This document shows positions 4,551-8,915 of a DNA stretch of 64,000 bases, in pieces. The translations under genes and the position numbers were made by a program. Each line of letters begins with the position of its first letter. Within the stretch, counting starts at the first letter, position 1. This DNA comes from Desulfitobacterium metallireducens DSM 15288 (lineage in GTDB: Bacteria > Bacillota > Desulfitobacteriia > Desulfitobacteriales > Desulfitobacteriaceae): positions 2,666,001-2,730,000 of the forward strand of contig NZ_CP007032.1 in the NCBI RefSeq assembly GCF_000231405.2, written 5' to 3'. The notes under the pieces were generated by a model. It did not search any database. It saw only the letters and a program-made list of their open reading frames with translations, and was not told where the DNA came from.

Positions 4551-4575
4551 AAAATGGCAACCCCACTCTTAAAAA
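4551..4575 (-). terminator. Distal half of the split terminator hairpin of the diguanylate cyclase gene
   Basis: AAAATGGCAACC (4551-4562), CCAC, then TCTTAAAAA (4567-4575). The matching arm lies 3.6 kb away at 8155-8171. Without the transposon and one copy of TCTTAAAAA, the two halves form a 12-bp stem plus a CAC/GTG extension whose loop is exactly the 9-base target duplication. Confidence 0.75.
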
Positions 4576-4602
4576 TAACGGGTTCCGTTCAGGGGTGCAA
4601 AA
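4576..4602 (+). repeat. Left terminal inverted repeat
   Basis: 27 bp starting TAACGGGTTCCGTT and ending GGGGTGCAAAA. One mismatch (C for G at the fifteenth base) against the right end. It abuts the TCTTAAAAA target duplication at 4567-4575. Confidence 0.88.
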
Positions 4603-4603
4603 T

Positions 4604-4674
4604 AAAAAATCACATGGATTTCCACAAGGACTTTCGCATAAATTTTCGTAACTAAAATATGAAAAATCACATGG
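4604..4674 (+). repeat. Left subterminal AATCACATGG sites
   Basis: Two copies of AATCACATGG (4608-4617 and 4665-4674) preceded by A-runs, pointing inward. They match sites at the other end of the element and are probably transposase or accessory-protein binding sites (inference). Confidence 0.6.
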
Positions 4675-4683
4675 TTTTCAGTT

Positions 4684-4718
4684 AAAAAAAGGTGACCATA
4701 GCTTTGGGCTTGGTCACC
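4684..4718 (-). terminator. Terminator inside the transposon, left end
   Basis: On the minus strand, GGTGACCA (4718-4711), a 12-base loop, TGGTCACC (4698-4691), then seven T. It would stop the transposon's leftward transcript, that is transposase plus SUKH gene. Confidence 0.8.
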
Positions 4719-4748
4719 GATTATATTTTATTCCCCTTTATGAAATGT

Positions 4749-4778
4749 CTACTTTCGTTAAATCTACTTTCGTTAAAT
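4749..4778 (+). repeat. Perfect 15-bp tandem duplication
   Basis: The unit CTACTTTCGTTAAAT occurs twice without spacer (4749-4763 and 4764-4778), inside the transposon between its terminator and the attC-like fold. Confidence 0.9.
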
Positions 4779-4787
4779 AAGAAAATG

Positions 4788-4863
4788 CGTATAACGTTTT
4801 CGCATTCCCGTAGCGCCATACCGCTTTCATATTGGCAAAGTTACGGGAATGCTGTGTTATACC
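4788..4863 (-). other. attC-like folded recombination site (candidate)
   Basis: Nested inverted repeats: GTATAAC (4789-4795) pairs with GTTATAC (4856-4862), and GCATTCCCGTA (4802-4812) pairs with TACGGGAATGC (4842-4852). Unpaired spacers of unequal length lie between, and the apical part is imperfectly paired. It lies 60 bp downstream of the SUKH gene, where an integron cassette would carry its attC. The outer boxes only loosely match the attC core consensus and no integrase is present in the window, so this stays a candidate. Confidence 0.35.
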
Positions 4864-4922
4864 GATGGACTGTGGGCCCCAGATAAATTCTAAAATCTTA
4901 AGAAGTATCTTAAGGTGCTAAA

Positions 4923-5366
4923 TTAGCTATTGGTTAAACCAACACAATAAATATAATGATATAGATTTTTGTAGGTTGTTGGTTTGACACCTTTTTCTTC
5001 ATGGTCCCAAACAGATATGGAGGATTCACATATGCCATCAACTACCTTGAAACCATAATAATCTCCTGCCCCATTATTGGAAACAGCAAGAAAATTATAA
5101 GAAGTGACGACTCCAGCTTCTTTATTCTTTGAAACTATGAACCATTCACTTTCTTTTATTCCAGAAAAGATTACTGTAAAAGCGAAGTAGCCTCCACCAT
5201 ACTCTTTTATGAATTCTTTATATTCCTTAGGAAGCCGTAACATTAAATTAGTTTCAATAAACGTTATATCTTCATCACTGCTCTTTAGATCGGATTCCAG
5301 TCCAAACCATACCGGATGGCAGATTCTTGTTTCGTTGACAACTTTAGAAAACATCGTGAAATCCAT
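4923..5366 (-). CDS. SMI1/KNR4 (SUKH) family protein, probable immunity protein
   Basis: 147 residues from the ATG at 5366, chosen because TTGAGGGG precedes it; a longer reading from 5387 lacks a site. The sequence has the SUKH pattern: an N-terminal helix, then IETNLMLRLPKEYKEFIKEYGGGYF, a beta-rich middle, and a C-terminal SISVWDHEEKG segment. SUKH proteins are commonly immunity partners of polymorphic or contact-dependent toxins and act in the cytoplasm. Here no toxin gene is adjacent: the protein is transposon cargo, downstream of the transposase on the same strand. It could protect against a toxin encoded elsewhere or one delivered by a competitor. Confidence 0.78.
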   Translation of the reverse strand: MDFTMFSKVVNETRICHPVWFGLESDLKSSDEDITFIETNLMLRLPKEYKEFIKEYGGGYFAFTVIFSGIKESEWFIVSKNKEAGVVTSYNFLAVSNNGAGDYYGFKVVDGICESSISVWDHEEKGVKPTTYKNLYHYIYCVGLTNS

Positions 5367-5499
5367 TGTTATTCCCCTCAACCTCACATTTCACATTCTT
5401 AACATAAGGCTTTACGTCTATAATAGACCGTATTTCTCATCCTTTTCCAAATTTATCATGACAATTAATCCCCAAGAAACCATAAAATCCACAGTCTAT

Positions 5500-5588
5500 C
5501 GTATAACGTTGGATTAACAAAGTGCGCAATAATTCCGATATAGGTATTATTTACGAAATAGGTTCGCAAATATAATTCTATACCGGAA
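5500..5588. repeat. Direct repeat CGTATAACGTT plus hairpin at the upstream edge of the SUKH segment
   Basis: CGTATAACGTT at 5500-5510 is identical and in the same orientation as 4788-4798, so the SUKH gene lies between two copies. Beside it, TTCCGATATAG (5533-5543) pairs with CTATACCGGAA (5578-5588), with a further AT-rich stem inside. The fold lies just after the transposase stop codon and may also act as its terminator. Confidence 0.5.
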
Positions 5589-5628
5589 CCTCTTGACTTA
5601 CTGCACGAATGCGTCATTGCCTAAAATT

Positions 5629-7566
5629 CTAGCAAAAGTAAATGATGTCTTTTATCGTAAATTGCTTATCTGTGATTCCAAGGCGTTGGGCAGGCGTTTG
5701 TAGTTGTCCATTTACCTTTGTTACCCAACAGAAGTTGTAAAATGTTCTTAATATGGTTGTAATATACTGGGCGTACTTCGGGTTATAGTTTGCGTAAATA
5801 TAGCTTTTACCTTCGCCCCTGGCAGTAACCAATGGTCTTTCAAGTATTGAAACACGTCGTCTTATAACTTGAAAGAAGTTATTGATGGTTCGACTATTTA
5901 CCTGAAAAATTAGATCAGCTAAATCATCTGTTCTAAGATGTCTCAAATCAGTGATGCAATCCACCCGTCTATGTCCTTCATCTTTATCGGGCAAAGTGTG
6001 CATTATTGGATTGTGTCCACGGATTGGATACTCACGATCTCTTTGGCTCACCATCTTATAAAAATCATGACCGATTAAATCTTCTTTGAGTTTTTTCAAC
6101 CCTAGAGACTCGTATGATTCTTCTTCTGAATAGCCATTTGCTTTACCCCATTTTCTTAAAGCTATTCTACCTTTGTAAAACACTTTTCCGGCCTCTTCCA
6201 AATCTAGCGACTTATCAGTTTGACAGACAAAATAATTGGCATATCCATCTAAGAAGTTCTTTGAGAAGACACGAAAAATCGCATTTTGAAGGTTTGAATC
6301 ATCATCAGATACAAAAAACCATTCTTTAACGTTTAACATCCTACGAATCAACCAGTAGTGCGCAAGAGCGGTATAGATTGTCTTGGTATGAGAACCTTCT
6401 ACATATTGTTTTCTAAGTTCAAACTCTTGGAGTTCAAAATAGTATTCGGCTTCTGTTTGTTCATCCTTCTTAGTTGGGGGCTGGGGGCAGTAAGGGTATT
6501 TTAGCCTTTCATTCTTTCTTAAAAAGCTATAAGTGTGGTCACAGTGGTATTGAATGGTGTCTGATTCGACTTCATCCAGTGTTCTTGTAAAGTCATAAGC
6601 AATATCAGCTCGGAAAATATAACCCGTTTTCAAATCACCACTTGAAATCAGGGAGGTTTGCAGTTTCCTATCTAAACCCTCATCGCCCAAACGCTTTCCT
6701 TTTCCTCTTTGCCGAATGTTATTAAGGTTATAAATTAGGAAATCCGTATTCAGCCATAACTGATCAAAGTCCAACTTCTTAAGCGCCTGTGTTTCGTGTC
6801 GATCCAAAAACTCAAGGCATTTCTTATAAAGCCATTCAAGTTTTTCATAATATGTTTGTGATCCAATCTCAAGCTGCTCACAGACTCTTTTAACAGGAGT
6901 TCTTGAAGTGATTGCTTTTGCAAATCTTAGTAAAATATCGTTTCGTTTTTGGTTGTAGCTAAAGTTTTCGTTTTGTTTAGGCAATACGTTCGTTATCTTC
7001 TTACATACTTTGCATTGATATTTTGTTGCGTTGCCTGTGCTTTTCCCCCTGTTATAGAACCCTGTCCTATGGGTAAAAGGAGTCTGCCCTTCGGCGGCGC
7101 AATCTGGCCTATGAAAGTTGTACTCCTTTTCAAAAGGTACAACGGTATTTATCGTAATAAGTCGCTTAATTTCTTCTGCCACAGACCAATTAGAAACCGT
7201 TTCCGTCCTATTACCCAATACAACTCCATAAGACATATCTTCAGGTATCTCATTACATTTAATTCTTGTGCCCCCATCATCAAGCTTATAGCGTGAGGGT
7301 TTGTATTTAAAAAACGAATAACGAATCTGAGGCTGACCGTACCACTTGCAAAATGGATTATTACAAAAATTAAACTGTAATTCAGATTCATCATCCTCGA
7401 TATATAAATGAGAGGGAGTATAGAGTAAGGGCCGCTGCTTCTTCATGAATTCAACATTAGATAGCTCTTTGTATTCTATATCGCGCGGTTCATCGGAATC
7501 TGAAAATGCACCGGCTGTAGAAATATGTAGATCATTCGAATGGGCAATCTTTTGCAGCTTCCTCAT
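5629..7566 (-). CDS. Large IS1-like DDE transposase
   Basis: 645 residues. The N-terminal part carries zinc-finger-like pairs (CNNPFC at about residue 69, HRPDC, then CKVCKK near 185). A helix-turn-helix-like stretch follows (TPVKRVCEQLEIGSQTYYE). Candidate catalytic acids are in DQLWLNTDFLIYN, FVSDDDSNLQNAIF and the NNFFQVIRRRVSILERP helix; the last resembles the C-terminal part of IS1/ISL3-type transposases, as does TPAQRLGI. It has its own GGGAGAGG site eight bases before the ATG and overlaps the upstream small gene by 35 bp, so translation is probably coupled. Classical IS1 transposase is about 230 residues, so this is a distant or unclassified group. No frameshift is needed to read it. 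Confidence 0.8.
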   Translation of the reverse strand: MRKLQKIAHSNDLHISTAGAFSDSDEPRDIEYKELSNVEFMKKQRPLLYTPSHLYIEDDESELQFNFCNNPFCKWYGQPQIRYSFFKYKPSRYKLDDGGTRIKCNEIPEDMSYGVVLGNRTETVSNWSVAEEIKRLITINTVVPFEKEYNFHRPDCAAEGQTPFTHRTGFYNRGKSTGNATKYQCKVCKKITNVLPKQNENFSYNQKRNDILLRFAKAITSRTPVKRVCEQLEIGSQTYYEKLEWLYKKCLEFLDRHETQALKKLDFDQLWLNTDFLIYNLNNIRQRGKGKRLGDEGLDRKLQTSLISSGDLKTGYIFRADIAYDFTRTLDEVESDTIQYHCDHTYSFLRKNERLKYPYCPQPPTKKDEQTEAEYYFELQEFELRKQYVEGSHTKTIYTALAHYWLIRRMLNVKEWFFVSDDDSNLQNAIFRVFSKNFLDGYANYFVCQTDKSLDLEEAGKVFYKGRIALRKWGKANGYSEEESYESLGLKKLKEDLIGHDFYKMVSQRDREYPIRGHNPIMHTLPDKDEGHRRVDCITDLRHLRTDDLADLIFQVNSRTINNFFQVIRRRVSILERPLVTARGEGKSYIYANYNPKYAQYITTILRTFYNFCWVTKVNGQLQTPAQRLGITDKQFTIKDIIYFC

Positions 7567-7840
7567 CAGAAATTACCTCTCCCAAGCTCTCAATTTCTTC
7601 TTTAGGTAGTCCCTTTAAATCCTTTAAGATTAGTTCGTTAATCTTTTGTTGATACCGTCTTGATTTTAGCCAAGCTACGAATTCTTCATCATCTAAGATT
7701 TGGGATAAGATCATATCAACAAGTTCGCTTTCATCATACTTGGTGTACTTAGAATATTGGGCAATAATTTCACGACCTCGTTTTGAAATTTTCCATTCAA
7801 CTTTAACAGAACCTTCGTATTTAGGTTTAACCGGTCTCAA
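7532..7840 (-). CDS. Small ribbon-helix-helix-like accessory protein of the transposon
   Basis: 102 residues from the TTG at 7840, chosen for the AGGAGG seven bases upstream; a TTG at 7861 would add seven residues without a site. The stretch SVKVEWKISKRGREIIAQYS, then YDESELVDMILSQIL, has the strand-helix-helix spacing of ribbon-helix-helix DNA-binding proteins. The C-terminus is acidic. It is the first gene of the transposon operon and overlaps the transposase start by 35 bp. AATCACA motifs just upstream could be its operator, making it a transposition regulator or end-binding factor. The fold is inferred from pattern only. Confidence 0.6.
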   Translation of the reverse strand: MRPVKPKYEGSVKVEWKISKRGREIIAQYSKYTKYDESELVDMILSQILDDEEFVAWLKSRRYQQKINELILKDLKGLPKEEIESLGEVISDEEAAKDCPFE

Positions 7841-7904
7841 ATCAAAACCTCCTGGAGTCAAACTAACTCTAATATTTTGCCCAGATTATACTAAGTATAG
7901 CCAA

Positions 7905-8099
7905 AAATCACAATGGTTTTCACATCAAAAATCACACCCAAATTCACATCGAATATTATTTTATATTTAGTGCGATAAACCATGTGATTTTGAGTGTGAA
8001 TTATGGGCAAATTGGCAGGGTGTATGGCCCTTAAACCCGGTAATAAAAGGATAGAGGCTAATGTGATTTTATCACTATTAGCCCCTAAATAACTCGTGA
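7905..8099. repeat. Right subterminal AATCACA sites and palindrome
   Basis: Copies in plus orientation at 7906-7916 and 7930-7938, and in minus orientation at 7980-7991 (CCATGTGATTTT), about 8061-8070 and near 8096. GGCTAATGTGAT (8056-8067) and ATCACTATTAGCC (8071-8083) form a palindrome containing the motif. These sites occupy the promoter region of the transposon operon and the right end. Confidence 0.6.
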
Positions 8100-8118
8100 T
8101 TTTCTATGAGAATTAAAG

Positions 8119-8145
8119 TTTTGCACCCCTCAACGGAACCCGTTA
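8119..8145 (-). repeat. Right terminal inverted repeat
   Basis: 27 bp, reverse complement of 4576-4602 with one mismatch. It is bounded outside by TCTTAAAAA at 8146-8154. Confidence 0.88.
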
Positions 8146-8171
8146 TCTTAAAAAGTGACGGTTGCCATTTT
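8146..8171 (-). terminator. Proximal half of the split terminator of the diguanylate cyclase gene
   Basis: On the minus strand, AAAATGGCAACC (8171-8160) and GTCAC (8159-8155) start seven bases after the cyclase stop codon. The partner arm is now at 4551-4566. The cyclase transcript therefore probably reads into the transposon. Confidence 0.75.
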
Positions 8172-8177
8172 GACTCG

Positions 8178-8915
8178 TTATGTTTCGCAATATCCAAATT
8201 TCGAATATGCAACAACTTTATTTTTCTTTTCCTTTGCGGTATACAGTGCTTCATCGGCTTGCGTTAACAGTTCGTCCAAAGTTAAATCATCGCAGGTAGA
8301 AACAATCCCTAAACTTATTGTAACTTGTAACCCAAAATCGTACTTCTCAACCGTTTTTCTTAATCTTTCCGCAAATGTTCTAGCTCCGTTTAGATCAGTT
8401 TCAGGTAAAATTATTGCAAATTCTTCGCCACCCCAACGAGCGACAATGTCAATACTTCGCATACTTTGCTTTAAAATACAACTCAGTTTTTTAAGTATTT
8501 CATCACCCATTAAATGACCATTCGTATCGTTAACTTTTTTGAAATTATCGATATCAATAAGGATCAAAGAAAATACGGATTGCGTTCTCTTAATACGTGA
8601 TATTTCGTCGTCGAGCTTATAATTAAAATATCGTCTATTGTATAACCCTGTTAGTGCATCATTATGAGCTCCAAAATATAATTTTTTGATTAAAATCCCA
8701 CAAGTCATACTGATTAGTACTAGAATTACTCCAAAGGGTAACCATAAAATAAACTTGTTAGATATCTCCGCAAATTCGTCTAGTAAGTAGGCGATAGCAC
8801 ATAAAATAGCGCTTAGAATAGGTAAAAGGATAGGAATAAACTTTATTATCCATTTTTCGAAACGAGTAGGTTTCATAGCGATTACTGAGTGAAGATTGTA
8901 AATCAATCGGTCCAC
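8178..8915 (-). CDS. Membrane-bound diguanylate cyclase (GGDEF)
   Basis: 245 residues. Two membrane helices (about residues 27-47 and 55-75), then a complete GGDEF domain from about residue 85: DALTGLYNRRYF, DIDNFKKVND, and the active site RWGGEEF. An RSID sequence sits five residues before GGEEF, the position of the RxxD product-inhibition site, so an active, feedback-inhibited cyclase making c-di-GMP is expected. There is no separate sensory domain beyond the helices. The start is GTG at 8915; an AAGGTG site lies about eleven bases upstream, so a slightly different start is possible. The gene's terminator is interrupted by the transposon. Confidence 0.9.
   Translation of the reverse strand: MDRLIYNLHSVIAMKPTRFEKWIIKFIPILLPILSAILCAIAYLLDEFAEISNKFILWLPFGVILVLISMTCGILIKKLYFGAHNDALTGLYNRRYFNYKLDDEISRIKRTQSVFSLILIDIDNFKKVNDTNGHLMGDEILKKLSCILKQSMRSIDIVARWGGEEFAIILPETDLNGARTFAERLRKTVEKYDFGLQVTISLGIVSTCDDLTLDELLTQADEALYTAKEKKNKVVAYSKFGYCET

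Follow-up and report, generated by a model that had tools for sequence, protein, structure and literature searches.

In a 64,000-nucleotide stretch of Desulfitobacterium metallireducens DSM 15288 (contig NZ_CP007032.1, positions 2,666,001 to 2,730,000; hereafter the window), we identified a transposon that splits the terminator hairpin following a diguanylate cyclase gene, and comparison with its relatives confirmed that insertion into such hairpins is a property of its family. Coordinates given here are positions within the window rather than within the element (Table 1). The element, which is a single copy in its own genome (one full match), has near-perfect 27-bp ends, TAACGGGTTCCGTT(C/G)AGGGGTGCAAAA, inverted relative to each other. 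When the element and one copy of its 9-bp target-site duplication (TSD) are removed, the joined flanks read AAAATGGCAACCGTCAC-TTTTTAAGA-GTGGGGTTGCCATTTT on the minus strand, a strong hairpin with a predicted energy of -31 to -37 kcal/mol that begins 6 nt past the stop codon of the cyclase open reading frame (ORF). The exact terminal inverted repeats (TIRs), the TSD and the restored hairpin bear out a first-pass annotation of this DNA, which had placed the element in the terminator loop after the cyclase stop codon. That annotation also held that the cyclase had been parted from its terminator, which is true, though the element supplies an inward-facing terminator-like hairpin on the minus strand (8052-8087). 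On balance, the family probably consists of DDE transposons distantly related to IS1, of a cut-and-paste or copy type, that target intrinsic-terminator hairpins.

The ends of related elements were located by their terminal repeats and duplications, giving 28 distinct insertion events after rearranged copies were left out (L-numbers label relatives' loci or insertion copies). L059 and L061, which are rearranged and lack matching TSDs, fall outside the counts, and ends were looked for but not found in the relatives from Polaromonas (L032) and Acidovorax (L064). We defined a centred strong hairpin as one of -11 kcal/mol or better whose axis lies no more than 1 nt from the TSD centre. Approximately 19 of the 28 events have such a hairpin. 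Seven are the window element, L010, L011, L050, L029, L047 and L065, the last a proteobacterial relative of about 24% identity; the remainder are 12 of the 16 events of Tn7491 (L030, L046, L056, L058, L060, L062, L076, L077, L079, L089, L090 and L091), the dfrG (trimethoprim resistance) transposon of enterococci, staphylococci and Listeria, originally recognised within the Listeria element Tn6198 (PMC10763498). Canonical Bacillota relatives lie in centred hairpins without exception (6/6), and the site of a second proteobacterial relative, L033, is a perfect palindrome, with the insertion 3.5 nt away from its centre. L060, L062 and L090 share homologous terminators and are independent insertions, not independent targets.

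Among the first 25 events, 17 (L034 included) satisfy this definition of a centred strong hairpin, compared with 3.2% of 5,911 control positions taken from the same flanks at least 15 nt away (binomial p ~3e-20); with the cut-off at -18 kcal/mol, the figures are 13 of 25 and 0.5%. All three events added later have perfect centring, with hairpins of -19 to -23 kcal/mol. A measure independent of folding gave the same axis: Watson-Crick pairing, averaged over sites, has a sharp maximum at an offset of 0 (6.75 of 12 pairs, control 3.15), and pairing runs at approximately 60-90% between 5 and 17 nt outside the centre against a background of 27%. Exact boundaries and 9-bp TSDs recur in unrelated relatives, and all intact events retain the hairpin arms and duplicate 9-10 bp. 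The first-pass annotation had asked whether other copies sit at random sites, and these numbers answer that they do not. Copies of IS1 from E. coli K-12 were uninformative as a control set, no direct repeats being found around the three examined. It could be argued that insertion is random and that purifying selection keeps copies at harmless intergenic sites, and the annotated sites are indeed mostly at or near gene ends. We find this explanation barely credible: control positions in the same flanks have centred hairpins in just 3% of cases, centring of the 9-bp duplication with a precision of 1 nt is beyond what selection can produce, and the axis profile contradicts it.

For five of the occupied hairpin sites, intact versions matching the joined flanks at 99.3-100% identity across 269 nt are present in public plasmid and phage records (S. 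aureus phages, NC_008445, pN315, CP137474 and CP096052). Because these hairpins exist empty, the palindrome, as judged from the records, precedes the insertion. The first-pass annotation had suggested looking for the empty site in a relative, and these five sites show the palindrome empty; none was found for the window's own site, whose gene order relatives do not retain. One terminator is occupied in both L062 and L090, with an identical 9-bp duplication but the element reversed, and comparison of such copies shows that either orientation is used at a target hairpin.

What, then, is recognised? The first-pass annotation equated the 9-bp TSD with the loop, which is correct for the window but cannot be generalised: the stems of L011, L029, L050, L060 and L062 continue into the 9 bp, so the constant feature of the sites is the dyad axis and not a 9-nt single-stranded loop. 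It further proposed that the transposase recognises a hairpin, a cruciform or the single-stranded loop rather than a sequence. The arms of centred sites have no common sequence apart from the homologous terminators, and because they are unrelated, a structure or dyad is supported as the common factor in preference to a sequence motif. That much of the proposal stands; recognition of a single-stranded loop is its least likely form, since stems often extend into the duplication. The unrelated arms likewise make it very improbable that the target is a specific sequence present in terminators by coincidence, an explanation in whose favour a weak preference within the TSD (C or A at position 1, T at 2-5, A at 6) could be cited.

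A- and T-tracts are a further candidate signal. The axis does not move although their distance from the TSD varies between 4 and 13 nt, which disfavours tract spacing. The transposase might instead read symmetrically bent duplex DNA, with an A-tract on one side, a T-tract on the other and an incidental GC stem; pairing reaches its maximum at 11-15 nt from the centre, a common location of the tracts, and the 9 bp show a weak AT-rich preference. The fixed axis again speaks against this explanation, as does GC-stem pairing at 5-10 nt that far exceeds background, and we consider it improbable. The main rival is that the transcription machinery (a paused RNA polymerase, an RNA hairpin or R-loop, or gene-end supercoiling) recruits the transposase without direct recognition of DNA structure. 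Most sites resemble real terminators with A- and T-tracts, and some stems (L046, L058) depend on G-U pairs, which are well tolerated in RNA alone. Recruitment alone, however, leaves unexplained both the centring within 1 nt and the use of both orientations at one hairpin, and L065 has no A-tract by the tract measure used; we judge it unlikely.

The elements also carry terminator-like hairpins of their own, which is new here. We scanned ten elements (the window element, L010, L011, L029, L030, L033, L047, L050, L051 and L065; 20 ends) for hairpins that lie within 227 bp of an end, reach -12 kcal/mol and are succeeded by a T-run. Such hairpins are present at 19 of the 20 ends compared with 14 of 129 interior windows (Mann-Whitney p 8e-11). 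Those at left ends face inward in all ten cases, commonly at +44 to +57, and those at right ends in six of ten. In the window element, the orientation of the hairpin at 8052-8087 suits the stopping of read-through from the cyclase, and we infer that the internal hairpins substitute for the terminator that is split.

From the comparison of sites, we favour recognition of a dyad or hairpin (cruciform) with a 9-bp staggered strand transfer. The transposase, with its zinc-ribbon/helix-turn-helix (HTH) segment and catalytic core and perhaps the small accessory protein, would dock symmetrically on a dyad able to form a hairpin; the negatively supercoiled DNA at gene ends would most likely present this dyad as an extruded cruciform or in a transiently single-stranded state. 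On each strand, a transposon 3' end would be joined at the 5' boundary of the 9 central nucleotides, and subsequent repair would duplicate the central 9 bp. The inward-facing hairpins in the element ends would then replace the split terminator, making the insertion nearly neutral and insulating the element. A more ambitious reading, to which we give slightly less than even credence, is that a transposase family whose root is distantly related to IS1 recognises extruded cruciforms of any sequence, duplicates the 9 nt at their tip and has co-evolved replacement terminators in its ends, forming a general structure-guided system that spreads resistance genes while leaving neighbours undisturbed.

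Several points weigh against this account of hairpin targeting. The preference is strong but not absolute, because four events have no convincing hairpin and four are weak or off-axis: nothing convincing was seen at L048, L051 and L075, and L031, L049, L057 and L063 are weak or off-axis. The fourth event without a convincing hairpin, L034, passes the threshold at -13.5 kcal/mol with an untidy structure and was left out of the 19. The empty site of L075 was also found, so this is a real exception. The energies are RNA-model predictions, not measurements of DNA cruciforms, and the G-U pairs in the L046 and L058 hairpins are mismatches in DNA. The targeting mechanism itself is drawn from sequence comparison. 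Finally, an AlphaFold model of the transposase built from four sequences was unusable (pLDDT, the predicted local confidence score, of 36), so that an RNase H-like catalytic fold is suggested solely by the conserved D/D/E residues.

Neither NCBIfam nor, above cut-off, Pfam gave a match to the transposase. Transposases of the family are 20-61% identical to it, the Tn7491 protein being 42-43% identical over 644 aa, its full length. In an alignment of 12 members cysteine motifs are seen and D275, D421, D423 and E576 are invariant, which makes D275, D421/D423 and E576 candidate DDE residues. The N-terminal segment aligns to IS1 InsA (hhalign E 6.6e-7), and Pfam Zn_ribbon_InsA was matched in 5 of the 12 members (best 3e-4); no alignment was obtained to the single InsB sequence compared, nor any match to Pfam DDE_Tnp_IS1. 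The small ORF preceding the transposase is 36-39% identical among three members, and in the window it had no family match in the family-model search of window proteins. Terminal repeats of the form TAA(C/G)(G/T)(G/A)GTTC... and the 9-bp TSD are common to the window element and the Tn7491-type family. Elements of Bacillota are 3.2-6.6 kb long, many with passengers, and encode one transposase ORF of 640-670 aa. Relatives occur in Planococcus, Pontibacillus, another Bacillota genome, further genomes of the window's bacterial family and phylum, more than 100 plasmids (mostly of Enterococcus and Staphylococcus) and two S. aureus phages, with distant forms on plasmids of Pseudomonas, Polaromonas, Rhizobium and Marinobacter. 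A search of viral contigs for more copies yielded just one further Tn7491 record and one fragment.

Group IIC introns insert at intrinsic terminator hairpins; they are retroelements with an RNA mechanism that insert beside the hairpin and leave no TSD; the site is similar and the elements are unrelated. A 9-bp TSD is usual for IS1, with which the family shares the homologous InsA zinc-ribbon and HTH segment. It differs from IS1, an insertion sequence (IS) of approximately 770 bp with an InsA/InsB frameshift, in its larger size, its single transposase ORF some threefold longer and without a detectable InsB match, its passenger genes and its hairpin targeting. Insertion into palindromes is already known from group IIC introns, IS1272 and the REP-targeting IS. 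IS1272 and the IS1182 family resemble the elements described here in targeting stem-loops (inverted repeats) whose sequences differ, some of them directly behind genes, but they replace the stem-loop and produce no TSD (PMC5678879), whereas here the arms are kept and 9-10 bp are duplicated. Duplication of the loop only was drawn as a hypothetical alternative pathway for IS1272 (PMC5678879), and the family described here appears to realise it. IS elements that target repetitive extragenic palindromes or palindromic units (REP/PU; IS1397, ISPpu9, ISPpu10, ISPa11 and others) also enter palindromic extragenic elements but are directed to specific repeated REP sequences (PMC1525189), whereas the arms used here are arbitrary.

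Among the described systems, Tn7491 belongs to the same family and is its best-known member; it resembles the window element in its transposase (42% identical), the small ORF before it, 27-bp ends and 9-bp TSD, and carries dfrG where the window element has a SUKH gene. Its ends and 9-bp duplication have been published, and a second copy was reported between the convergent genes csbB and saeS; the words terminator, hairpin, palindrom-, and stem-loop are absent from that paper (PMC10763498). The family is widespread and poorly known, and it includes this transposon that spreads dfrG. The open-licence literature searched yielded no account of a family of IS1-related resistance transposons that combines targeting of terminators irrespective of sequence, a 9-bp TSD at the dyad and terminators of its own. 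Terminator targeting would account for the locations of resistance carriers and for how little damage they appear to cause, and the predicted landing sites of the clinically common Tn7491 are gene-end terminator hairpins on plasmids, phages and chromosomes. The family clearly exemplifies transposons that select their targets by the shape or symmetry of the DNA and not by its sequence, and terminators carried at both ends, an adaptation without description in the literature examined, would leave the insertions close to harmless. Should the transposase recognise hairpins directly, it could be used to probe DNA cruciforms in vivo and to place neutral insertions at the ends of genes.

Table 1. Features of the transposon and its insertion site, in window coordinates.
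Feature	Position	Strand	Remarks
Split terminator hairpin, left arm	4551..4566	+	
Target duplication, left copy TCTTAAAAA	4567..4575	.	
Transposon	4576..8145	-	3,570 bp; TIRs and 9-bp TSD
Left terminal inverted repeat TAACGGGTTCCGTTCAGGGGTGCAAAA	4576..4602	+	
Internal terminator-like hairpin near left end	4691..4718	+	faces inward; -16.4 kcal/mol
Cargo gene, SUKH (SMI1/KNR4) immunity-type protein	4923..5387	-	Pfam SUKH_6 E 1.4e-23
Transposase, 645 aa	5629..7566	-	N-terminal zinc ribbon and HTH, related to InsA of IS1; candidate DDE residues D275, D421/D423, E576
Small accessory ORF, 109 aa, conserved	7532..7861	-	just upstream of transposase; ribbon-helix-helix-like by eye
Internal terminator-like hairpin near right end	8052..8087	-	faces inward; -18.8 kcal/mol
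Right terminal inverted repeat TAACGGGTTCCGTTGAGGGGTGCAAAA	8119..8145	-	
Target duplication, right copy TCTTAAAAA	8146..8154	.	
Split terminator hairpin, right arm	8155..8171	+	
Diguanylate cyclase gene, terminator split	8178..8915	-	ORF; named from the first-pass annotation and a GGEEF motif seen in translation

Some members of the family exhibit further features. Repeats of the AAAATCACA type lie near the ends of the window element (4600-4700 and 7900-8030), at the ends of L048 and L079 and, by eye, in several relatives, and are possible transposase binding sites. The SUKH cargo gene is bracketed by inverted copies of CCACAGTC(C/T)ATCG(G)TATAAC and may for this reason be cassette-derived. 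A palindromic attC-like repeat within the element (4788-4866 and 5489-5600) is found at about nine other chromosomal places in two clusters (G000:C1, 411-447 kb and 621-676 kb), one of which is adjoined by a tyrosine integrase. Short degraded transposase fragments (L017-L024, L016 and L081) are frequent in the window's bacterial family, which suggests that the transposons have long been resident there. One genome holds two identical copies of a 6.6-kb member with 10-bp duplications (L048 and L049), one copy just past a 5S rRNA-like sequence in a terminator region and the other at no hairpin. In the phiSa2-type S. aureus phages phiSa2wa-st1420 and phiSa2wa-st1633, the dfrG transposon occupies two different terminator-like hairpins (L058 and L078), and phages can therefore carry it.

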